Assembly: GCF_001429605.1 (NCBI RefSeq)
Contig: NZ_LMSS01000002.1
Span: 1 to 64,000 of the forward strand
Direction of reading: 5' to 3'
Origin: Phycicoccus sp. Soil802
GTDB lineage: Bacteria; Actinomycetota; Actinomycetes; Actinomycetales; Dermatophilaceae
DNA length: 64,000 nt
This document shows positions 8,289 to 64,000 of the stretch, piece by piece. The notes beneath the pieces are model-generated. The model was not told the origin of the DNA, did not search any database, and saw only the letters and a list, made by a program, of their open reading frames with translations. Numbering within the stretch: the stretch's first letter is position 1; each line of letters opens with the position of its first letter. Position numbers and translations under genes: made by a program.

Positions 8289-10085
8289 GTGGACGCACCA
8301 CCGCCCCACGCGCCGCCCACCGGCACCCCTCGCCGCGCCGACCTGAAGGTCCAGGGCGCCGGAGCCACCGCCGACCGGGACCGCTTCCGGGTCTCCCGCG
8401 TGGCGATCTGGGGGGTCGTGGCCCTCGGCCTGGCCCAGGGCGCCTGCCTGCTCTCCTTCATCCTGCTGCTGTCGAAGGTCGTCGAGCTGCTCGAGCCGAC
8501 CGGCGTGGGGTTCGCCGCCGAGCGCGAGTACCGCCAGTCGCTGGTGGCGTGTGCGGTCCTCGCCGGCCTCGGCGTCGCCCTGGGCGTCCTCCGGGCGGTC
8601 GAGTTCTCGGTCACCGAGCGGGCTGGCTACGCGGTGGTGCGCCGCCTCCGGATGGAGATGTACGCCCACCTCCAGCGGATGCTGCCCGCCCACCTGCTCC
8701 ACCGCGCTCGCGGTGGGTTGCTGCTCCGCCTCACCGGCGACCTGAGCATGCTGCGGATGTGGCTGAGCCGCGGTCAGCTGCAGGGGTGCTCGGCTGCCAT
8801 CACCCTGGCGGCCGGGCTCGTCGCGGCGTTCATCCTCAGCTGGCCGATGGCCTGCTCGTTGCTGGCGGTCCTGTCGCTCGGGGCGGTGGCCTCGCTCTCC
8901 AGCGGCCAGGCGATGCGCTCGGCCACCCGCACGATGCGGCGCCGGCGTTCGCTGGTCATCGGCAACATCGCCGAGCAGATCAACGCCCTGGCCGTGACGC
9001 AGGTGGCCGGTCGCACCGGGGGCGAGTTCGCGAGGCTGTCGCGGCAGAACGACTCCCTCAACCGCGCGCTCGTGCGGGTCGCGAACCTCCGAGGTCGGCT
9101 CCGTGGCCTGGCCACCGGCACCAGCATGGTCGCCACCGCCGCCGTGGTGGCCACCGGCGTCGTCGAGGCCCGGCGCGGCGAAGTCCTGCCGGCCACCGTG
9201 CTCCTCGAGGTCCTGGTCGCCCGGTTCCTCACCCGCTCGGTGCGCACCCTCGGGCTGATGCACGACTACTGGCACCGGGGCACCGTCTCCCGACAGAAGA
9301 TCCTCGACTTCCTCGCCAGCTCGAGCCGCGGCATCGAGAGCTCGCTGCTTGCTCCCCTGCGGGTCCGGCGCGGCGAGATCCGGTTCAACGACGTGACCGT
9401 CGAGGGAGCGCTGGACGGGCTGACCGTCCTGGCGGAGCCCGGGACGGTCGTGGCGATCACCGGCCGGGCCGGCTCGGGGGCGACCGCCGTCCTCGACGTG
9501 GTGGCCCGGCTCGTGGACCCGGACGGTGGCGCGGTCATCATCGACGACCAGGACCTGGCCGAGACGTCTCCCAGCTCCATCGGACGCGCCGTCGGGATGG
9601 TCGGCCCCGACCTTCCCCTGATGCGCGGGACGGTCACCCGCAACCTCACCTACTCCGCCAGGTCGTCGACGCCGGCGGAGGTCCAGCGCGTCGCCTTCGG
9701 GCTGGGTCTGCACCAGACCCTCGGCCGGGTGGGTGCCGACGGGGTGGACGAGTGGCTCGTCGAGGGCGGGCAGAACGTCTCGCCGGCCGACCGGCAGCTC
9801 ATCGCGGTGGGTCGGGCCCTCATGGGCAACCCGCCGATCCTGCTCCTCAACCGGCCCTTCGAAGGCCTCGACCCGGCCAGCCGGATCCTCGCGCGCGCCA
9901 TGGTGCTGCGCCACCGCGGCACGGTGCTGTGGTGCACGGAGGACCCGGAGGACCTCGCCGAGGCCGACGTCATCTGGGTGCTCGAGGGCGGCGTCCTCAC
10001 CGAGGTGAAGGCGGGCAGCGCCTACCGCGCAGAGCAGTGGACCACCCGAAACCACGAGGAGAGCCGATGGCCCGCCACCACCTGA
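8289..10085 (+). CDS. ABC-exporter-like protein with degenerate ATPase motifs
   Basis: The 598-residue protein has the layout of a type IV ABC exporter half: about six membrane helices (residues 35-330) followed by a nucleotide-binding-like domain (about 355-580). Every catalytic motif is altered. Walker A reads GRAGSGAT (392-399) with Ala398 in place of the Lys; the Q-loop glutamine is missing; the signature LSGGQ is VSPAD (497-501); Walker B ends in Asn521-Arg522 instead of Asp-Glu; the H-loop His is gone (CTEDPE). The frame is intact over 1.8 kb and lies in a coupled operon, so the protein is likely made but unable to hydrolyse ATP by itself. It could be a scaffold, a regulator or half of a heterodimer. 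Confidence 0.88.
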   Translation: MDAPPPHAPPTGTPRRADLKVQGAGATADRDRFRVSRVAIWGVVALGLAQGACLLSFILLLSKVVELLEPTGVGFAAEREYRQSLVACAVLAGLGVALGVLRAVEFSVTERAGYAVVRRLRMEMYAHLQRMLPAHLLHRARGGLLLRLTGDLSMLRMWLSRGQLQGCSAAITLAAGLVAAFILSWPMACSLLAVLSLGAVASLSSGQAMRSATRTMRRRRSLVIGNIAEQINALAVTQVAGRTGGEFARLSRQNDSLNRALVRVANLRGRLRGLATGTSMVATAAVVATGVVEARRGEVLPATVLLEVLVARFLTRSVRTLGLMHDYWHRGTVSRQKILDFLASSSRGIESSLLAPLRVRRGEIRFNDVTVEGALDGLTVLAEPGTVVAITGRAGSGATAVLDVVARLVDPDGGAVIIDDQDLAETSPSSIGRAVGMVGPDLPLMRGTVTRNLTYSARSSTPAEVQRVAFGLGLHQTLGRVGADGVDEWLVEGGQNVSPADRQLIAVGRALMGNPPILLLNRPFEGLDPASRILARAMVLRHRGTVLWCTEDPEDLAEADVIWVLEGGVLTEVKAGSAYRAEQWTTRNHEESRWPATT

Positions 10086-55096: not shown

Positions 55097-55125
55097 CCCA
55101 AGTCAGTCCCAAGTGGCGCACAAGC
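55097..55125 (+). promoter_or_regulatory. SARP-type triple heptamer operator of the MMPL gene
   Basis: Three heptamers stand in direct repeat with a strict 11-bp period: CCCAAGT (55097-55103), CCCAAGT (55108-55114) and CACAAGC (55119-55125). The array ends 56 nt before the MMPL ATG. The same array occurs before the flavin oxidase gene at 63213-63185. Heptamers at 11-bp spacing are how SARP-type winged-helix regulators bind; a SARP gene lies between the two targets. Confidence 0.75.
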
Positions 55126-55181
55126 AGGTGAGCCGACGCTGGTCCCGACCAGTTCACCTCCGCACCACTCGAAGGACCACC

Positions 55182-57425
55182 ATGCCTGCCCTGCTCAGCC
55201 GGCCCACGCTGCGGACCGCAGCCCCCCGCCGACCCCTCCTCTACCGCCTCGGCCACGGTGCCGCCGCCCACCCGTGGCGCACCCTCGGTGCCTGGGTGGT
55301 CCTCGCCCTCGTCGTCGTCGGCCTCGCGGCCACGATCGGCGGCACCCCGCAGGACGACTACAACGTCCCCGGCGCGCGCTCCCAGGTCGGCATCGACCAG
55401 CTGCGCGCCCACCTGCCCGGCGCCGGCAACACCGCCGCCCGCGTCGTCGTGCACGACCGCAGCGGCGGACGACCCAGCGACGCCTCGCTCGCGCAGCTGT
55501 CGAGCCGGCTGCAGGCCATGCCCCACGTCGTCCAGGTCTTCCCGGCCGAGCGGTCGGCCGACGGCGACACCGCGGTCGTCAACGTCAGCTACGACGCCCC
55601 CGTCACGGACCCCGACCTGATGGGCAACCTCGACCCGATCGAGGCTGCCGTCGCCCCGCTGCGGGCCACCGGTGTCCAGGTCGAGCTGGGCGGCGAGCTG
55701 CCCGAGAGCGCGGCCGCCCCGATGGAGGGTCGCGGGGAGATCATCGGCATCGTCGCCGCCCTGGTCATCCTGGTCTTCGCGTTCGGGTCCGTGGTCAGCG
55801 CCGGCCTGCCGATCGGCACCGCGCTGGTCGGGCTCGGCGTCGGCAGCGCAGGCATCACCCTGCTCGCCGCCGCCACCGACGTCAGCACCGCCGCCCCGAT
55901 GGTCGCGACCATGGTCGGGCTCGGCGTGGGCATCGACTACGCGCTGCTGTTGGTCACCCGGCACGCCGAGTACCTCGCCCAGGGGTTCAGCGTCTCCGAG
56001 TCGGCCGGTCGCGCTGCCGCGACGGCAGGACGCTCGGTCGTCTTCGCGGCCAGCACCGTGCTGGTCTCGCTGATGGGGCTGCGCCTCGCGGGCCTGCCGG
56101 TCTACAGCTCGTTCGGCTTCTCGACCGGCATCGCGGTGCTGAGCGTGATGGCCGCCTCGCTGACCCTGGTGCCGGTGCTGTGCCGGTTCGCCGGTCGCCG
56201 TCTCCTGCCCCGCGCAGTCCGTCGGGCCGGCCGTGGCGCAGGCCGTCGCTCCGCCGCTGGCGACGTCGTCGCCAAGCCGCTGCGTATGCCGCTCACGGCC
56301 CGGTGGGCGGTCAAGGTCGCCAAGCGTCCGCTCCTGTGGGCGGTGTCGGCCGCGATCGTGATGCTCACCCTGGCGGTGCCGGCGCTCGACATGCGCACCT
56401 GGCCGCAGGACCCGAGCAGCCAGTCCACCGAGCTCACCACGCGGCGGGCCTACGACCTGGTCAGCGCCGAGTTCGGCGCCGGCAGCAACGGTCCCCTCAC
56501 GGTGGTGGTCGACCGCGCCCGGCTCGACGAGTCGGCCGTGGCAGGCCTGGCTCGCGACCTCGGGGCGCGCCCCGACATCGTGGCCGTCACCCCGGCCGTC
56601 ACGTCGCCGGACTCGGCGATCACCGTGTTCGACGCGATCCCGGCCTTCGGGCCCACCGACGAGCGCACCGCCGGCCTGGTCCGCGCAGTGCGGGCCCAGC
56701 TGCCCGCCGGGGCCGAGCTCACCGGTGGCACGGCCTTCTTCGCCGACATCGCCGAGATGCTCGCCGGCCGGCTGTGGATCGTCATCGCCTTCGTGGTGGC
56801 CGTCTCGGTGCTGCTGCTGGCCATGGTGTTCCGGTCGGTCGTGATCCCGGTCAAGGCCGCGGTCATGAACCTGCTGAGCATCGGCGCGGCCTACGGCGTC
56901 CTCACCGCGGTCTTCCAGTGGGGTTGGGCCACCGACCTGCTCGGCCTCGACCACCCGCTGGCCGTGTCGAGCTGGGTGCCGATCCTGATGTTCGCCATCC
57001 TGTTCGGCCTGTCCATGGACTACGAGGTGTTCCTCCTGTCCCGCATCCGCGAGGACTGGGCGCGCACCGGCGACTCGCACGGCAGCGTCGTGCGGGGGCT
57101 GTCGGCCACCGGCCGGGTGATCTCGAGTGCGGCGGCGATCATGGTCGCGGTCTTCCTCGGGTTCGCCAGCGAGGTCGACGTCGTGGTCAAGCAGCTCGGC
57201 GTCGGCATGGCCGTCGCGATCCTGCTCGACGCCACCGTCGTCCGCATGGTCCTGGTCCCGGCCACCATGTCCCTGCTCGGCGACTGGAACTGGTGGGTGC
57301 CGCGCTGGCTCGACCGCGTCCTCCCGCACGTCCGTGCCGAGGTGGAGGACGACGACGTCGAGCTGTGGGACGAGGAGCTGCGCGACGACGAGCTCCGCGA
57401 CCACGAGACCGTCGGCACGCACTGA
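55182..57425 (+). CDS. MMPL/RND-family transporter
   Basis: A 747-residue proton-driven exporter with twelve predicted helices in two halves and two large extracytoplasmic loops. The proton-relay pairs are visible as GIDY (250-253) and SMDY (611-614), each followed by a conserved basic loop. The acidic C-terminal tail (about 720-745) is cytosolic. MMPL proteins export lipids, siderophores or toxic compounds; the substrate is unknown. ATG 55182 follows GAAGGA. The upstream operator and the hemerythrin gene 52 bp downstream place it in the SARP-linked set. Confidence 0.92.
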   Translation: MPALLSRPTLRTAAPRRPLLYRLGHGAAAHPWRTLGAWVVLALVVVGLAATIGGTPQDDYNVPGARSQVGIDQLRAHLPGAGNTAARVVVHDRSGGRPSDASLAQLSSRLQAMPHVVQVFPAERSADGDTAVVNVSYDAPVTDPDLMGNLDPIEAAVAPLRATGVQVELGGELPESAAAPMEGRGEIIGIVAALVILVFAFGSVVSAGLPIGTALVGLGVGSAGITLLAAATDVSTAAPMVATMVGLGVGIDYALLLVTRHAEYLAQGFSVSESAGRAAATAGRSVVFAASTVLVSLMGLRLAGLPVYSSFGFSTGIAVLSVMAASLTLVPVLCRFAGRRLLPRAVRRAGRGAGRRSAAGDVVAKPLRMPLTARWAVKVAKRPLLWAVSAAIVMLTLAVPALDMRTWPQDPSSQSTELTTRRAYDLVSAEFGAGSNGPLTVVVDRARLDESAVAGLARDLGARPDIVAVTPAVTSPDSAITVFDAIPAFGPTDERTAGLVRAVRAQLPAGAELTGGTAFFADIAEMLAGRLWIVIAFVVAVSVLLLAMVFRSVVIPVKAAVMNLLSIGAAYGVLTAVFQWGWATDLLGLDHPLAVSSWVPILMFAILFGLSMDYEVFLLSRIREDWARTGDSHGSVVRGLSATGRVISSAAAIMVAVFLGFASEVDVVVKQLGVGMAVAILLDATVVRMVLVPATMSLLGDWNWWVPRWLDRVLPHVRAEVEDDDVELWDEELRDDELRDHETVGTH

Positions 57426-57477
57426 CGCCACGGCATACCTGGCACCTGAAACCCATTGACCTGAAAGGCAACTCACC

Positions 57478-58203
57478 ATGACCACGACGACCACGACGCT
57501 CTGGCCGGAGCAGCTCACCTTCCCCGGCCAGACCGCGGCCCACCCGGGGCCGGTCGACATGACGATGATGTACGTGATGCACCACGGCTTCCGCCGCGAC
57601 CTGGCGGCCTTCGCCGCGGCGGCCAGCGCCACCCCGACCGAGGCCCGCAGCACCTGGCGCGCCCTGGCGGCCCGGTGGGAGCTGTTCGCGGAGGTGCTGC
57701 ACCACCACCACTCGGGCGAGGACGCCGGGCTCTGGCCGACGCTCCTCGACCGGGCCGACGAGGCGGAGCGCCGGGTCCTCGAGGCGATGGAGGCCGAGCA
57801 CGCCGAGATCGACCCGATCCTGACGGCGTGTGCCGCCGGGTTCGAGCGGCTCGCGCACCACGCCGACGAGGACGCCCGGGCCGCGCTGGCGGTGCGGCTG
57901 TGTGCCGCACGGGAGAGCCTCGGCCGCCACCTGCGGCACGAGGAGACCGAGGCGATCGCCGTCATCCAGCGGGTGATGACGAACGAGGAGTGGGAGCAGG
58001 TCGAGGAGGAGCACTTCCGCAAGGACGTGGCCTTCGCGCAGGTCCTCGCGCTGGTGCCGTGGGCCGCCCACGACGTCCCCGGACCGTTGCGCCGACAGGT
58101 GTTCGCGAAGACCGGCCGGCCCAACCACATCCTGTGGCTGCTCACCCGCCGCGGCTTCGAGCGGCGCGAGGCGCTCGCCTTCCGCTACCTCGACCGCGAC
58201 TGA
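57478..58203 (+). CDS. Hemerythrin HHE-domain protein
   Basis: A 241-residue protein with a four-helix HHE domain (about 25-170). Candidate diiron ligands are His35/His36, the cluster HHHHSGED (about 75-82), Glu/His in EAEHAEID, and HLRHEETE. Such proteins bind O2, NO or iron in stress response. It lies 52 bp after the MMPL gene and its start follows AAAGG at a short distance. An octamer copy sits in the gap (57431-57438). It ends 19 bp before the convergent SARP gene. Confidence 0.88.
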   Translation: MTTTTTTLWPEQLTFPGQTAAHPGPVDMTMMYVMHHGFRRDLAAFAAAASATPTEARSTWRALAARWELFAEVLHHHHSGEDAGLWPTLLDRADEAERRVLEAMEAEHAEIDPILTACAAGFERLAHHADEDARAALAVRLCAARESLGRHLRHEETEAIAVIQRVMTNEEWEQVEEEHFRKDVAFAQVLALVPWAAHDVPGPLRRQVFAKTGRPNHILWLLTRRGFERREALAFRYLDRD

Positions 58204-58222
58204 TCCCCGTTCTGCGGGTGGG

Positions 58223-61200
58223 TCAGAAGGAGTGGCGGGTCCGCTCACCGCGCAGCCACTGCGCGGCGAGCGGGATCTGCCACTGCTCGCACAGCTCGAG
58301 CGCGCGGTCGGCGTGCGTGCCGGCCAGCTCACGCTCGCCGACCGCCGCCGCCGCGAGCGCGAGGAACGCGTCGACCGGACCCATGGCGATGCCCGAACCC
58401 GCCGTGCACGAGTGCCCGGCGAACGGAGCCAGCCGGTCGTAGGCGGCGGAGGCCAGCGCGTGGTCGTCCAGCCCGAGGGCCGCCTCGGCCGCGGCACACC
58501 AGTTGAGCATCGAGAACCAGTCGTCGTCCGCCACGCTGATCGGGTGCGACGCGGCATACGCCGTGGCCCTGTCCACCTCCCCGGCCCGCAGCCAGAACAC
58601 CACCATGGTCGAGGTCACGGGGAGCACGCTGTGCTGGGCGAACTGCTCGAGGATCGGGGCCACCTCGGCCGAGCGGCCCTGCCACAGCCGCAGCGACATC
58701 AGCGCGCCGGCGGTCGCGTCCTCGGTCTGGCCCAGGGTCATCTCCTGGTCGAGCCGCACGATGTCGGCCATCCGTCGCTCGCAGTCGTCGAACCGCCCGG
58801 CCATCGCGAGCCACGGCAGCTCCAGGCTGTCGAGGACGATCAGGCCGTAGGGCAGTCGCAACCGCTTGGCCCAGTCGCGGGCCACGACGGCGTGCTCCCA
58901 CATCTCCTCGACGAGGCCCAGCTCACCGGCCACGACCGCCCGCAGCGTCGTGGTGACCACATAGGCGCGCTCGTCGCCGAGGCGGTGCGCCAGCTCCATC
59001 CCCTCGCTCACGAGGTCCCGCCGCAGCTCCGCGGTCGCGCTGCGCCACAGGGCGACGTAGGCGAGCTGGCAGGCGTCGAGCAGGAGCGCCTCGTCGCCGA
59101 TCCGCCGGGCCATCGCGATGCCCTCCTCCACCAGCGCGCTGCGCTCCTCGACGGTGGAGCCGTAGTAGATCTCGAGCGCCAGCGCGAGCATCGCCCGGCA
59201 CCGCAGCGCGCCATCGGTGGTCGGCAGACCCTGCAGGACCCGGCGCAGGGCACCGACCACGACCTCGTTGACCGACCCGTGCGGCCCGGACTGCCAGAGC
59301 GCCCCGACCGAGGTCGCGGTGGCGGCCCGGCCGAGGAGCACGACGTCACCGATCTCGTCGGCGACGGCGATGGCCTGCTCGGCGGTGCCGACCAGCCCCT
59401 CCCAGTCACCCGACCACCGCTGCGCGTCCGCGAGGTCCATCAGCACGTCGTAGCGCTCACCGAGGGTGGCGTCAGGGTCACCCGGCAGCGCGTCGAGGGC
59501 TGAGCGCAGCAGGTCGGCCGACTCCTCGTAGGCGTGCAGCCGCCGCGCCACGGTCGCGGCCCGCACGCAGGCCAGCCAGGCCCGGGCGGCGTGCGCCGGA
59601 CCGGCGGACAGCCAGTGCCGCGCCACCTCGTGCTCGCGGCCCGCGATGCCCGACAGTGCCTCCGCGACGCGGGCGTGCGCCCTGGCCCGGCGGGTGGTGG
59701 GGATCGCCGCGTAGATGGTGTCGCGCACGAGGGCGTGACCGAAGAGGAACCGGTCGATGCCGTCGTCCCGCACCAGGCCTGCCTCGAGCGCCGGGTCGAG
59801 GTGGTCGAGCAGGTCGTCCTCGTCGAGGCGCGAGACCGCGGCCAGCGTGGCGAGGTCGAACTGCCGCCCGACCAGCGCGGCCCACCGCAGAGTCGAGACC
59901 GCCTCCTCCGGGAGCCGCTGCAGGCGCCGCGCGAGGACGTCGTGGACCGCCGCCGGTGGGTGCGCCTCGGCGACCAGCGCCGACAGGTCGCCACCCTCGC
60001 GGGCCAGCCTGGCGTACTCGACCAGGAAGAACGGGTTGCCGTCGGTGCGCTGCCGCAGGGCTCGCGCCTCGCCGTCGGACGGGGTCGACTCGCTGACCGC
60101 CTCCACCACCCGCGACGCGTCGTCGGCACTGAGGCCCTGCAGGTCGAGGCGCACGGCGTGCCTGCGGGCGAAGGTCTCCACCGCGTCGAGCAGCGCGTCG
60201 GTGGGTTCGGGGTGGCTGCGCCAGGTGCCGAGCACCAGCAGCCGGCCCTGCTGCACGGTCTCGCCGAGCAGTCGCAGCACCCGCAACGACGCGACGTCGG
60301 CCCAGTGCAGGTCGTCGAGCAGCACGACGATCGTGCGCTCCGACGCCGCCTCGGCCACCGCGCCCGCGATCGCCTCCCAGGTCCGGAACCGGCCACCGCC
60401 GTCCTCGTCGCCCTCGGTCTCCTCCGGCAGGTCGCGACCGAGCGCGCGCAACACCTGCTGCCACGGCCACAGCGGTGGGGCTCCGTCGTCCTGCGAGCAC
60501 CGACCCAGCAGCACCGTGGCGCCGCGCTCGCCGGCCACCTTGGCCAGCTCGCCGGCCAACCGGCTCTTGCCGATGCCCGGCTCGCCGACCAGCGCCGCCA
60601 GGGCGACCGACCCCGACTCGGCCTGCTCGAGGGCGCCGACGAGGTCGGCCAGCTGGTCTTCGCGCCCGACGAGCGGCCAGGGCGGCAGGGTCGGGACGAA
60701 CGACTGGATGCGGGCCGTGGTCGTCGCGCGGGACGGCTGCGGGGCAGGGGAGGAGGTCCCGGGCTGCCAGTCCAGGGTGGGGTCCTGGCGCAGCACGGCC
60801 GACTGGAGGTCGCGCAGCTCCTGACCGGGTTCGAGGCCGAGCTCGTCGGCGAGGACGTCGCGCACCTCGCGCAGCGCGTCGAGGGCCTCGGCCTGGCGGC
60901 CGGCCCGGGTGAGCGCCAGGGCTCGCAGCCCCCACAACCGCTCGCGCAACGGGTATGCCGTGGTGAGCGACTCGAGCTCGCCCGCCACGGTCGCGTGCTG
61001 CCCGAGCTCGAGCGACGCGACCGCGCGGTCCTCCAGGGCGACGACGCGCAGCTCCTCCAGCCTGGCGCGCTCGGCGACCGCGGAGGGGGCGTCCTCCAGC
61101 TCGAGGTAAGGCGTGCCCCGCCAGAGCGACAGCGCCTCGTCCAGCTCGGCGACGACCGCCGTGAGCTCCTCGGTCGAGAGGCCGCTCGGCTGGTGGAGCG

Positions 61201-61567
61201 CGGCCAGCTGGCCGATGCGGCGGTGCGCCCGGCTGACCGCCCGGTCGAAGCGCGCCGCGTCGAGGGCGTCGTCCCCGACCCGCAGGGCGTACCCCGGCGC
61301 GACCGTCACGAGCACGTTCGACGGGGCGCGAGCGGCCCGGTCCGGCTCGAGGGAGCGGCGCAACCCCGCGACGTACGCCTGCAGGGTGCCGCTCACCCCG
61401 GGTGGCGCACCGTCGGGCCACAGCAGGTCGACGAGGGCGTCGACCGAGACCGGCCGCCCGTGGTTCATGGCGAGGGCAGCGACCAGGGCACGCTGCTTGC
61501 GCGTGCCCAGGTCGACGGGGCCGTCGCCCAGGGACGCCTGCACGGCACCGAGGACACCCACTCTCAC
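58223..61567 (-). CDS. SARP-family regulator with BTAD, AAA and TPR-like domains
   Basis: A 1114-residue regulator. An OmpR-type winged helix (about 15-98, with LGTRKQRALVAALAMN and GTLQAYVAGLRRSLEP) is followed by a BTAD domain (about 105-255), an AAA domain with Walker A GEPGIGKS (328-335) and Walker B VVLLDDLHWAD, and a long helical C-terminus. Large SARPs of this kind activate secondary-metabolite genes by binding 11-bp-spaced heptamers. Exactly such arrays stand before the MMPL gene and the flavin oxidase gene on either side, which makes this protein their likely controller. GTG 61567 begins the conserved first strand. Confidence 0.92.
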   Translation of the reverse strand: MRVGVLGAVQASLGDGPVDLGTRKQRALVAALAMNHGRPVSVDALVDLLWPDGAPPGVSGTLQAYVAGLRRSLEPDRAARAPSNVLVTVAPGYALRVGDDALDAARFDRAVSRAHRRIGQLAALHQPSGLSTEELTAVVAELDEALSLWRGTPYLELEDAPSAVAERARLEELRVVALEDRAVASLELGQHATVAGELESLTTAYPLRERLWGLRALALTRAGRQAEALDALREVRDVLADELGLEPGQELRDLQSAVLRQDPTLDWQPGTSSPAPQPSRATTTARIQSFVPTLPPWPLVGREDQLADLVGALEQAESGSVALAALVGEPGIGKSRLAGELAKVAGERGATVLLGRCSQDDGAPPLWPWQQVLRALGRDLPEETEGDEDGGGRFRTWEAIAGAVAEAASERTIVVLLDDLHWADVASLRVLRLLGETVQQGRLLVLGTWRSHPEPTDALLDAVETFARRHAVRLDLQGLSADDASRVVEAVSESTPSDGEARALRQRTDGNPFFLVEYARLAREGGDLSALVAEAHPPAAVHDVLARRLQRLPEEAVSTLRWAALVGRQFDLATLAAVSRLDEDDLLDHLDPALEAGLVRDDGIDRFLFGHALVRDTIYAAIPTTRRARAHARVAEALSGIAGREHEVARHWLSAGPAHAARAWLACVRAATVARRLHAYEESADLLRSALDALPGDPDATLGERYDVLMDLADAQRWSGDWEGLVGTAEQAIAVADEIGDVVLLGRAATATSVGALWQSGPHGSVNEVVVGALRRVLQGLPTTDGALRCRAMLALALEIYYGSTVEERSALVEEGIAMARRIGDEALLLDACQLAYVALWRSATAELRRDLVSEGMELAHRLGDERAYVVTTTLRAVVAGELGLVEEMWEHAVVARDWAKRLRLPYGLIVLDSLELPWLAMAGRFDDCERRMADIVRLDQEMTLGQTEDATAGALMSLRLWQGRSAEVAPILEQFAQHSVLPVTSTMVVFWLRAGEVDRATAYAASHPISVADDDWFSMLNWCAAAEAALGLDDHALASAAYDRLAPFAGHSCTAGSGIAMGPVDAFLALAAAAVGERELAGTHADRALELCEQWQIPLAAQWLRGERTRHSF

Positions 61568-61648
61568 CCGCCCGAGAGTACGCGCGAGCGGTCACTTCCC
61601 ACTCGTGCTTTCGGGCGAGACCGGGGTTGCGGTCCAGCACGCGGCCGA

Positions 61649-61685
61649 GCCGGTATGCCGCGTGGTCACCACGCGGCATACCGGC
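61649..61685. terminator. 37-nt perfect palindrome made of two inverted octamers
   Basis: The arms 61649-61666 and 61668-61685 are exact reverse complements around the single base 61667, and each arm contains one GTATGCCG. It lies 16 bp beyond the stop of the flavin oxidase and before the SARP start, both on the minus strand, in the place of a terminator. Paired inverted signature words at gene ends are typical of DNA uptake sequences in Neisseria and Pasteurellaceae. Confidence 0.75.
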
Positions 61686-61700
61686 CCCCCTCAGGACGTG

Positions 61701-63131
61701 TCAGTCGGTGACCCGGCCGTGCTCCACGAGCCGCGGGATGCGGTGGTTGCCCACGAACAGTCCGTGCGGGTCGACCGCAGAGCGAATTCCCTTGAGCTGC
61801 AACCACGCCCGCTCGTCGTAGGCGGTGCGCGGGTCGACGGCGCTCTCGGCGAAGTTGAGGTAGCTGCGACCATTGGCCCACGGGGACAGCACCTTGGTGA
61901 GGCGGTGCGCGTCGTGCTCACCTTGCGCTGCCATCTCGGGCGTGAGGGCCATCGCGCCGGCGAAGGTGACGAACGCGGCGTCGAGCTTCTTCAGTGCGCC
62001 GCCACCCTCGTGCTCCCGACCCAGGGCCCCACCGAGCTGCCGCAGCTCGGCCATCAGCAACGACGACGACGAGCCCGGCCCGACCTCGGACAGGAACGCG
62101 TCGACCGCCTCGTCGGGCATCCCGCCGAGCATCGCGGAATCGGACACCACGGGCGTGGGTCCTTCGGGGTCCATGTGCAGCCGCACGAGTGAGCGCGCAG
62201 GCACCCGCCCGAAGGTGTCGATCTCCGGTGACAGGGCGCGCAGGTCGGCGATGGCCGCTGCGCCTGCCTCGTCCGAGCCGAGGACCGCCCCGTCGATCAC
62301 GACGACCGACCGGCCACGGAGCAGCTCGGGGATGTCCGGGATCGGGGGCAGGTTGAGGACCCGGAACGACGTGGTGACGTCGTCGGGTGCACCGGGAGCC
62401 CACTGGGCCCAGCGCCGCAGCACCGGCTCCGCGACCTCGCGGTCCCAGATGAGCATGCCGGCGTAGGCCGTTTCGATGGCGTAGAGCCGGAACTCGAGGG
62501 CCGTGACGACGCCGAAGCTGCCGCCACCGCCGCGCAGCGCCCAGAACAGCTCGGCGTTGCGGTGGGCGTCAGCGCGCAGGTGCTCGCCGTCGGCGGTGAC
62601 GAGCTCGACCGCGGTGAGGCTGTTGGTGGCCAGGCCGAGGCGCCGGGCGTACCAGCCGATGCCTCCGCCGAGGGAGTAGCCGGCGATGCCGACGTCGGGG
62701 GAGCTCCCGTGCAGCGCGGCCAGGCCGTGGTCACCGGCGGGCTCGGTCGCGTGCATCCACAGCGCACCGCCCTCCACGCGGGCGATCCGGCGCACCGGGT
62801 CGATGGTGACGCCGGTCATCGCCGAGGTGCGCAGCACGACGACGTCGTCGAGACCCTGCGCGACGAGAGGGCCGGCGTTGTGCCCGGTGCTCTGCGGGGC
62901 GATCCGCAGGTCCGCCGCGGCGGCCGCACGGACCACCTCCTGCACCTGGGCGACGGTCCGCGGCTGGGCCACGGCGGCCGGGCGCTGGTCGAGGGCGGCG
63001 TTCCACGGGAGGCGCGCTGCGTCGTACCCCGGGTCGCCGGGAAGGTGGACCCCACCGTCGCAGAGGCCGCGCAGGGCTTCGGCGCGCCGCTGGTCAGGTC
63101 GCAGGCTGGTGGGGGTGGTCTGGCTGGTCAT
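61701..63131 (-). CDS. FAD-dependent BBE-type oxidase
   Basis: A 476-residue flavoprotein of the berberine-bridge/PCMH family: FAD domain (about 45-220) and a C-terminal BBE segment (YLNFAESAVDP, then LKGIRSAVDPHGLFVGNHRIP). His84 in STGHNAG is in place for 8-alpha-histidyl FAD attachment, but the second covalent site, usually a Cys, is Ser144 (HGSSPDVGIAG), so attachment would be single. Related enzymes oxidise sugars or natural-product intermediates. No signal peptide. ATG 63131 follows AAGGAG. It carries the same upstream operator as the MMPL gene. Confidence 0.9.
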   Translation of the reverse strand: MTSQTTPTSLRPDQRRAEALRGLCDGGVHLPGDPGYDAARLPWNAALDQRPAAVAQPRTVAQVQEVVRAAAAADLRIAPQSTGHNAGPLVAQGLDDVVVLRTSAMTGVTIDPVRRIARVEGGALWMHATEPAGDHGLAALHGSSPDVGIAGYSLGGGIGWYARRLGLATNSLTAVELVTADGEHLRADAHRNAELFWALRGGGGSFGVVTALEFRLYAIETAYAGMLIWDREVAEPVLRRWAQWAPGAPDDVTTSFRVLNLPPIPDIPELLRGRSVVVIDGAVLGSDEAGAAAIADLRALSPEIDTFGRVPARSLVRLHMDPEGPTPVVSDSAMLGGMPDEAVDAFLSEVGPGSSSSLLMAELRQLGGALGREHEGGGALKKLDAAFVTFAGAMALTPEMAAQGEHDAHRLTKVLSPWANGRSYLNFAESAVDPRTAYDERAWLQLKGIRSAVDPHGLFVGNHRIPRLVEHGRVTD

Positions 63132-63184
63132 GGGTGACTCCTTGTTCCGCTTCAGTTGGTGTGCGGAACACGGTGCAGCCACCC

Positions 63185-63213
63185 GCTTGGGCACCACTTG
63201 GTGCCGACTTGGG
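63185..63213 (-). promoter_or_regulatory. SARP-type triple heptamer operator of the flavin oxidase gene
   Basis: Read on the minus strand the heptamers are CCCAAGT (63213-63207), ACCAAGT (63202-63196) and CCCAAGC (63191-63185), each starting 11 bp after the previous one. The array ends 53 nt before the oxidase ATG and has the same orientation towards its gene as the array before the MMPL transporter. Confidence 0.75.
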
Positions 63214-63246: not shown

Positions 63247-63945
63247 TCACCGACCCGCGGAAACCGCCCGCACCTGCCCACCAGAGGGCAACACGGGGGT
63301 GGAGGCTTCGTGCTGCGGGCGCCCGACGCGACCGGCGACATCGGCCACGACCTCCTCGAGGAGGTGGACGAGCCGGTCCGCGACGTCGGGGACGCAGGCC
63401 ACGGCGATGCCCTCCACGGCATACGCGACGGTGTGCGGGGCGGTCTGGCGGCGGTAGGTGCGCTCGCTGACGACCGCACCGCGGGCATAGCGCTCGGCCC
63501 AGGCGTGCGCCTCCGGGACCGCCGCGAACGCCGCACCACACAGGTCGTCGACGAGGTCGCGGACGCCGGGCCGCCCCGCCGCGAGCCGCTGGGCGGTCAG
63601 CAGGCCGACCGCGAGCACGCTCTGGCGGGTGGCCGGGGCCACCGGGAGAGCCGCCGCGGCGGCGCGGGTGGCGATCGCGAGGTCGAGGTCGAGGTCCGAC
63701 CCGGTCAGCCCCACGACGTCGGGGATCAGCATGACCAGCCGCCCCCGGTCGGCGTCACCCAGCGAGTCGTTGACCAGCCGGGCCAGCGACGCGAGCAGGG
63801 GGTGGGTGCAGGCCGGGTGGTCGCTCCAGCGCTCGCCGGCGAGGAAGGAGGCCAGCTCCATGAAGCAGGCACCCTTGCGCGGGTTGCGGTGCCGTCCCGC
63901 GGACAGCACGGGCACCAGCTCTGGCAGGGTCGTCACGCGGCTCAT
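63247..63945 (-). CDS. Conserved actinobacterial protein, unknown function
   Basis: A 232-residue soluble protein, mostly helical. Its N-terminal part contains NPRKGACFMELASFLAGE and SDHPACTHPLLASLARLVND, a conserved Cys/His-bearing stretch seen in actinobacterial hypotheticals, but no catalytic motif or named domain was recognised. ATG 63945 is preceded by GGGAGG. An octamer copy lies near the 3' end (63417-63424). Confidence 0.7.
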   Translation of the reverse strand: MSRVTTLPELVPVLSAGRHRNPRKGACFMELASFLAGERWSDHPACTHPLLASLARLVNDSLGDADRGRLVMLIPDVVGLTGSDLDLDLAIATRAAAAALPVAPATRQSVLAVGLLTAQRLAAGRPGVRDLVDDLCGAAFAAVPEAHAWAERYARGAVVSERTYRRQTAPHTVAYAVEGIAVACVPDVADRLVHLLEEVVADVAGRVGRPQHEASTPVLPSGGQVRAVSAGR

Positions 63946-64000
63946 GGCACCTCCCGGCGGGGCAGTCAGGGCCATTGCTCGTCGCGGCAGCGGCCCTGGT

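Follow-up and report, generated by a model that had tools for sequence, protein, structure and literature searches.

Paired triple-heptamer sites around a SARP-STAND gene of Phycicoccus sp. Soil802 predict a small local regulon of oxidase, MMPL transporter and hemerythrin genes

In a 64,000-nucleotide stretch of DNA from the actinobacterium Phycicoccus sp. Soil802 (contig NZ_LMSS01000002.1, positions 1 to 64,000; hereafter the window), two promoters each carry three heptameric direct repeats at an exact 11-bp period, and the gene for a SARP-family regulator with a STAND-type ATPase half lies between them. We consider it very probable that both triplets are operators of this SARP, which would act as an activator of two local operons through an operator like that of PimR. 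Relatives of these genes in other actinobacteria carry the same operator, and the control circuit therefore looks old, small and of a known general type. A first-pass annotation of the window had described the two triplets and the 1114-residue SARP between them and had proposed that they define a candidate regulon. The letters, period, direction and gene position all held on inspection, and the proposal itself gained from the rarity of the sites, their co-occurrence in the genus, their recurrence in the class at three gene types, their closeness to BTAD genes and their spacing to a -10-like hexamer.

Two matching candidate operators that are rare in the genome

Operator 1 (55097-55125, plus strand) reads CCCAAGT-cagt-CCCAAGT-ggcg-CACAAGC, with heptamers at 55097-55103, 55108-55114 and 55119-55125, and lies 56 nt before the ATG (55182) of a gene for an MMPL-family transporter. 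Operator 2 (63185-63213, minus strand) reads CCCAAGT-cggc-ACCAAGT-ggtg-CCCAAGC, with heptamers at 63213-63207, 63202-63196 and 63191-63185, and lies 53 nt before the ATG (63131) of a flavin oxidase gene. In both, the repeats have the same direction relative to their own gene and are one helix turn apart. The MMPL gene (55182-57425, plus strand, 747 aa) is followed after 52 nt by a gene for a 241-aa protein with a hemerythrin HHE domain (57478-58203, plus strand), with which it probably forms one operon. The SARP-STAND gene (58223-61567, minus strand) and the gene for the oxidase, a 476-aa enzyme dependent on flavin adenine dinucleotide (FAD) with an FAD_binding_4 domain (61701-63131, minus strand), lie on the other strand, and the MMPL-hemerythrin unit and the oxidase-SARP side face each other as convergent units.

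We searched the 4,294,604-base genome with the pattern CCCAAGT-N4-CCCAAGT-N4-CCCAAGT (21 fixed bases, up to 3 mismatches), using the pattern written backward as control. This search, which the first-pass annotation had named as its check, returned exactly two matches, both of them module operators, and none for the control; in its own genome, the pattern is thus not common at unrelated promoters. A looser pattern with up to 2 mismatches added two weak matches against 7 in the control, and a pattern that includes the -10 hexamer gave, with up to 3 mismatches, 8 matches against 14, only the two module sites matching it perfectly. One match with 2 mismatches (G000:C7:118738; G000 is the window's own genome, other G numbers denote compared genomes and L numbers compared loci) lies 156 nt before an open reading frame that by eye resembles a gene for an extracytoplasmic function sigma factor; it was not above control and was rejected as a further target. 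Since the extra matches of the looser patterns are no commoner than their controls, the candidate regulon consists here of two promoters. A wider regulon, sought in this genome with the three patterns, was not found, and the regulon appears to be confined to the module.

A -10-like hexamer at a fixed distance from the repeats

To 33 aligned sites, numbered from the first base of heptamer 1, we applied a column count (36 rows, less one overlapping register in L049 and the sites of L058 and L155). Column 40 is A and column 44 is T in 33 of 33, so that a -10-like NANNNT stands at one fixed distance although only the heptamers had chosen the sites. A wider count of 49 sites, which keeps the L049 register, L058 and L155, has NANNNT at this place in 45. 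In the window the hexamers are GACGCT at the MMPL promoter (55135-55140, plus strand; A 55136 and T 55140 fall on the invariant columns) and CACCGT at the oxidase promoter (63170-63175, minus strand). Counted from the hexamer, the heptamers occupy -50 to -44, -39 to -33 and -28 to -22, and nine bases separate the third heptamer from the hexamer as registered, or 8 if the register is shifted by one base. Direct heptamers at 11 bp with the 3′ repeat about 8 bp from the -10 element are the arrangement of a SARP-type operator. In three genomes (G490, G636 and G700; L192, L194 and L195) a hemerythrin gene has its ATG only 6 nt downstream of the operator's hexamer, which suits a leaderless mRNA if the hexamer is a -10 element.

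Conservation in the genus, family and order

An inward-facing pair of sites was found in 8 of 11 genus genomes, seven of which have the module and one its remnants. The oxidase has an orthologue in 7 of the 11, and the three genomes without strong sites are also without an oxidase orthologue (G002 and G005 have no match at 1e-40, G006 only a 35% relative). In G004 no MMPL gene was found, and the site stands directly before the hemerythrin gene; a 19-kb stretch of Knoellia sinensis has the SARP gene, the MMPL gene and a site before the latter, and no oxidase or hemerythrin gene was found in it. The genome with remnants, G009 (L049, G009:C30:28000-46000), is a natural deletion: SARP and MMPL genes were not found, the oxidase and hemerythrin genes are truncated, and both operators are still recognisable, the one on the hemerythrin side with a changed third repeat. 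The whole module is kept in two other genera of the family (G031 and G073). Two genomes of another family (G039 and G057) have only the SARP, about 34% identical, and the oxidase, with a site before the oxidase gene. A refined pattern run over 396 genomes of the order with up to 1 mismatch gave 14 matches in nine genomes, all in the module, and 8 for the backward control. Gene order and orientation vary between genomes (convergent, divergent, tandem) while the link between site and SARP holds. The genus-level counts concern orthologous sites and are not replicate events; the independent weight lies with the blind class search described below.

Recurrence across the class

Relatives of the oxidase at E <= 1e-60 occur in 70 of 197 class genomes, and we fetched 40 stretches around the listed matches, mostly the best ones. 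A CAAGT triplet scoring at least 12.5 stands upstream of 8 of 16 oxidase genes with a SARP gene within 4.5 kb and of 4 of 29 without one (Fisher P 0.014); at a score of at least 11 the contrast is 12 of 16 against 6 of 29 (P 0.001), both limits having been chosen after the data were seen. In 58 loci, triplets with an 11-bp period and at least 13 of 15 matching bases occur at 36 places, while each of eleven control patterns (one reversed, five with other cores and five with other periods) occurs at 0 to 2.

The pattern CAAGT-N6-CAAGT-N6-CAAGY-N10-ANNNT was then searched blind, as an exact match and with gene information not used, in 394 class genomes. It gave 17 matches in 14 genomes, against 1 for the backward control. 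The next gene encodes an oxidase in 5 cases, an MMPL protein in 3 and a hemerythrin protein in 5, that is, in 13 of 17; one further match precedes the gene of a secreted-looking protein beside a SARP-oxidase locus, and three precede other or unclear genes. Within 6.2 kb, a limit set after the data had been seen, 14 of the 17 have a BTAD gene, where 0.31 would be expected. The motif had been shaped in part with six of the 14 genomes; in the other eight, 7 of 8 matches are close to a BTAD gene, or 4 of 5 when one is taken per genus (P about 1e-6). For G544, another stretch was already among the fetched loci before the blind match in that genome; it has no site of at least 13. One genus contributes four genomes with just 2 BTAD matches apiece; in each, the site stands at a hemerythrin gene 3.3-3.7 kb from one of these matches, the protein being about 30% identical to that of the window. 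G618 carries its MMPL and hemerythrin genes, both preceded by an operator, on a 138-kb contig in which no BTAD match occurs, and another contig holds SARP, oxidase and a further operator; the operator is therefore present even where the genes are unlinked from the regulator.

The SARP gene appears to have its own promoter

The oxidase and SARP genes are on the same strand, 133 nt apart, and keep this order in the genus. Our first assumption was that they are co-transcribed, which would place the SARP in a positive feedback loop through operator 2. We now regard this as unlikely and have dropped it for this family, whose SARP genes have a promoter-like hexamer of their own. In the window this is TACTCT (61575-61580, minus strand), 7 nt before the GTG start and of the leaderless type, and TANNNT stands 6-7 nt before the start codon in 10 of 10 family-level orthologues. 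A strong hairpin with a stem of about 19 bp and no T run (61647-61687, minus strand; -41.5 kcal/mol in a 45-base window) lies between the oxidase and SARP genes and may be a terminator. Windows of the same size at or below -31.7 kcal/mol occur within 190 nt before the SARP start in 8 of 10 orthologues, a count made without shuffle control; the other two reach -19 and -24, and the sequences of these hairpins differ from that of the window. G039 and G057 were also folded, the start codons of their SARP genes not being established. No CAAGT triplet of at least 13 stands before the SARP start in the ten family-level loci. Together, the hexamer, the hairpin and the lack of a triplet make a separate leaderless mRNA the probable source of the SARP and give no sign of feedback through operator 2 here. 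The varying position of the gene points the same way, since in other genomes it is divergent from or convergent to the oxidase. Feedback draws some support from a locus of G578 (L198, G578:C1:4608000-4626000), which has, at 8683-8733, five repeats spaced by 11 bp, the first imperfect, about 0.9 kb before its SARP gene. By eye, several genus members share a stretch like GAAAAG-N-CGAGTG (61600-61612, minus strand) ahead of the SARP start, perhaps an upstream promoter element of the SARP gene.

Is the SARP between the sites their regulator?

The sites might instead be bound by another SARP of the genome, or by an unrelated regulator, with the gene between them a bystander. We think this improbable. 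Against it stands the closeness of the blind matches to BTAD genes, above all in the four genomes where these number only two, and the persistence of the link through changes of gene order and orientation.

Several observations nevertheless weigh against the SARP of the module as the regulator of the sites, or against a strict code. The own genome has 10 BTAD matches, so another SARP could bind. Four of the 29 class oxidase genes without a SARP gene within 4.5 kb still have a triplet of at least 12.5 (at one of them, L145, a SARP gene lies about 5.7 kb away), and conversely 8 of the 16 with a SARP gene nearby score below this limit. The blind matches in G578, G725 and G709 precede other or unclear genes, and that in G725 has no SARP gene near it. 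Three family relatives of the SARP, about 40% identical (L054, L055 and L056), have no triplet of at least 13; no site exists at the SARP loci of one Streptomyces plasmid and of a Nonomuraea replicon, and a second Streptomyces plasmid locus has only a weak triplet (12.0), before a methyltransferase gene. The link between SARP and site is thus not universal. The 33 sites behind the column count include orthologues and are not independent. The residues Thr88 and Arg92, with which AfsR touches bases, align with Ala and Gly in the SARP of the window. Finally, across 58 genomes including the own, the first pattern with up to 3 mismatches gives 23 matches in 14 genomes against 18 in 11 for the backward control, so that the rarity seen in the own genome does not extend to this comparison; the module sites are set apart by fewer mismatches, pairing and place, not by the 3-mismatch pattern itself. 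Single or overlapping matches of this pattern in G023, G035 and G036 look, by eye, like other repeats.

Leader inverted repeats

Both promoters have an inverted repeat in the leader, TGGTCC (55140-55145) with GGACCA (55174-55179) on the plus strand (55140-55179) and TGTTCCGC (63170-63163) with GCGGAACA (63150-63143) on the minus strand (63143-63170). Each runs from the last base of the -10 hexamer to the ribosome-binding site or to just before it, and their sequences differ between the two promoters. Over the 49 sites, the best arm of inverted repeats starting at or near the last -10 base has a mean length of 3.55, against 1.56 in shuffles, and in some relatives the two arms change sequence in step. 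It might therefore be asked whether the main control lies here, through a second repressor or an RNA element, the SARP sites serving only as a basal activator box. To this we assign a small chance: the inverted repeat occurs chiefly within the window's own family and is missing at most sites of the class, and the spacing of its arms varies. A simple RNA-hairpin reading was rejected on the ground that transcription from the predicted start would leave out the left arm, which lies upstream of it.

That the two promoters resemble each other merely through duplication or gene conversion, without regulatory meaning, would account for their shared -10 spacing and their leader inverted repeats of differing sequence, and is very improbable, as the heptamers stay while spacers and flanks differ, in several genera and at three gene types.

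The SARP protein and its closest known relatives

The architecture of the regulator is that of the SARP family, with an OmpR-type DNA-binding domain (Trans_reg_C, residues 22-94) and a BTAD domain (130-259), both above Pfam cut-offs, followed by an AAA_16 ATPase and a long helical C-terminal region. SARP-LAL regulators are marked by a C-terminal half whose ATPase is akin to those of LAL regulators and guanylate cyclases but which has neither a LuxR helix-turn-helix nor a cyclase signature. The C-terminal half of the window's SARP also has a partial match to a TOMM kinase/cyclase model, below its cut-off, and no LuxR helix-turn-helix or cyclase model matched at E <= 0.001. A structural model (mean predicted local distance difference test score 87, predicted template modelling score 0.59) matches the fold of DNA-bound AfsR in its SARP domain, with a template modelling (TM) score of 0.89 on the target and 2.5 A. 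Fold matches to the rest include, with low TM-scores, STAND ATPases with helical repeats, a STAND-TPR protein and the maltose-system entry 8bob being two of these.

AfsR of Streptomyces coelicolor, whose base-touching residues are Thr88 and Arg92, binds the afs box, described as two 11-bp repeats at -40 to -19 with a weak CACTGT -10 element (PMC10936776). As far as this description goes, the window's SARP shares with it the SARP domain fold, 11-bp direct repeats and further ATPase and helical C-terminal parts, and from the position of the afs box it follows that repeats 2 and 3 stand where AfsR binds. The first repeat is extra here, the window having three against two, and the NOD ATPase and TPR region of AfsR differ from what the window's SARP matched, namely AAA_16 and no TPR model. 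The protein is not an AfsR orthologue: it reaches 169.8 bits with the AfsR equivalog model, whose cut-off is 1430, with the best stretch at residues 2-346. The recognition helix of related SARPs likewise departs from AfsR. Since Thr88 and Arg92 are not conserved, the DNA contacts of AfsR are not directly transferable, and the recognition contacts must differ.

PimR, the SARP-LAL activator of pimM, has the operator TGGCAAG-AAAG-CGGCAGG-TGTT-CGGCAAG, three heptameric direct repeats; this is described as not overlapping the -35 element, and the only gene that PimR targets encodes a further regulator of a polyene cluster (PMC5930380). Compared by this description only, the two systems share triple heptamers with 4-nt spacers and a CAAG core, as in the heptamers of SARP-LAL regulators, and a SARP domain fused to a large ATPase half, in which no LuxR helix-turn-helix model matched here. 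Unlike the PimR operator as described, the window's triplets cover the -35 region with repeats 2 and 3, and the genes controlled would be those for an oxidase, an MMPL transporter and a hemerythrin protein. With repeat 2 at -39 to -33 as counted from the predicted -10 element, the system does not belong to the PimR subtype, whose operator lies outside the -35 region and in a secondary-metabolite cluster.

A locus on plasmid pLP337 of Rhodococcus qingshengii (L201) is close in layout: a SARP gene is followed by a triplet (12.5) with CATCCT at the -10 place and by a gene for an FAD-dependent oxidoreductase. It differs in having no MMPL or hemerythrin relative within the 17.8 kb examined. A second BTAD gene lies nearby. 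Term searches of the literature found no report of a SARP controlling an oxidase-MMPL-hemerythrin set.

Possible function and mechanism of the module

The closest solved relatives of the oxidase, aligned over nearly its full length, are mitomycin radical oxidase (McrA; PDB 9r43, E 7e-68) and EncM (1e-55), homologous FAD oxidases to which it is distantly related; no NCBIfam cut-off was reached. McrA is a drug-inactivating enzyme that re-oxidises reduced mitomycin. The Gly-His pair at 83-84 is invariant across 16 aligned homologues, and His84 is presumably the residue that links the flavin. The first-pass annotation had suggested that the genes could make, export or detoxify an oxidised small molecule, which is plausible from their families: the set of flavin oxidase, hemerythrin-type protein and MMPL exporter suggests that a small molecule is handled by redox chemistry and exported. 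Whether this serves detoxification rather than biosynthesis is, to our mind, evenly balanced. The two flanking genes examined encode a protein of the endonuclease/exonuclease/phosphatase family and a protein without family, and by family models on these two genes (no cluster search was made) the immediate neighbours are not recognisably biosynthetic. A 242-aa protein encoded at 63247-63975 (minus strand) matched no Pfam or NCBIfam model at E <= 0.001; several genus members have a relative of it beside the oxidase operator.

We propose that two or three SARP protomers would sit in a row along one face of the DNA, each on its own heptamer, from about -50 to -22. The two downstream protomers would take the place of AfsR on its target promoter, repeat 2 lying where a -35 element would be, and would recruit RNA polymerase. 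Both convergent units, the FAD oxidase on one side and the MMPL and hemerythrin proteins on the other, would then be switched on together, while the regulator would be made separately from its leaderless-type promoter. The STAND ATPase and helical domains may sense a ligand and gate DNA binding.

The module offers a SARP with a predicted complete local regulon and a defined operator outside the antibiotic clusters, the usual setting of SARP research. Relatives in which the module is split, reduced or decayed amount to a natural experiment, the operator code predicts targets in other genomes that are without functional data, and the association of oxidase, hemerythrin and MMPL genes suggests a shared function. 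Should the STAND half respond to a compound, both promoters would serve as a ready reporter for finding it. More tentatively, and with somewhat less than even confidence, the system may be part of a class-wide actinobacterial redox-defence regulon, in which a SARP-STAND sensor outside antibiotic clusters would use a single operator code (three NNCAAGT boxes at 11-bp spacing, followed by NANNNT) to drive changing combinations of flavin oxidases, hemerythrins and MMPL exporters, some of them encoded apart from the regulator. If so, SARPs would be ligand-gated stress regulators and not only activators of antibiotic production.

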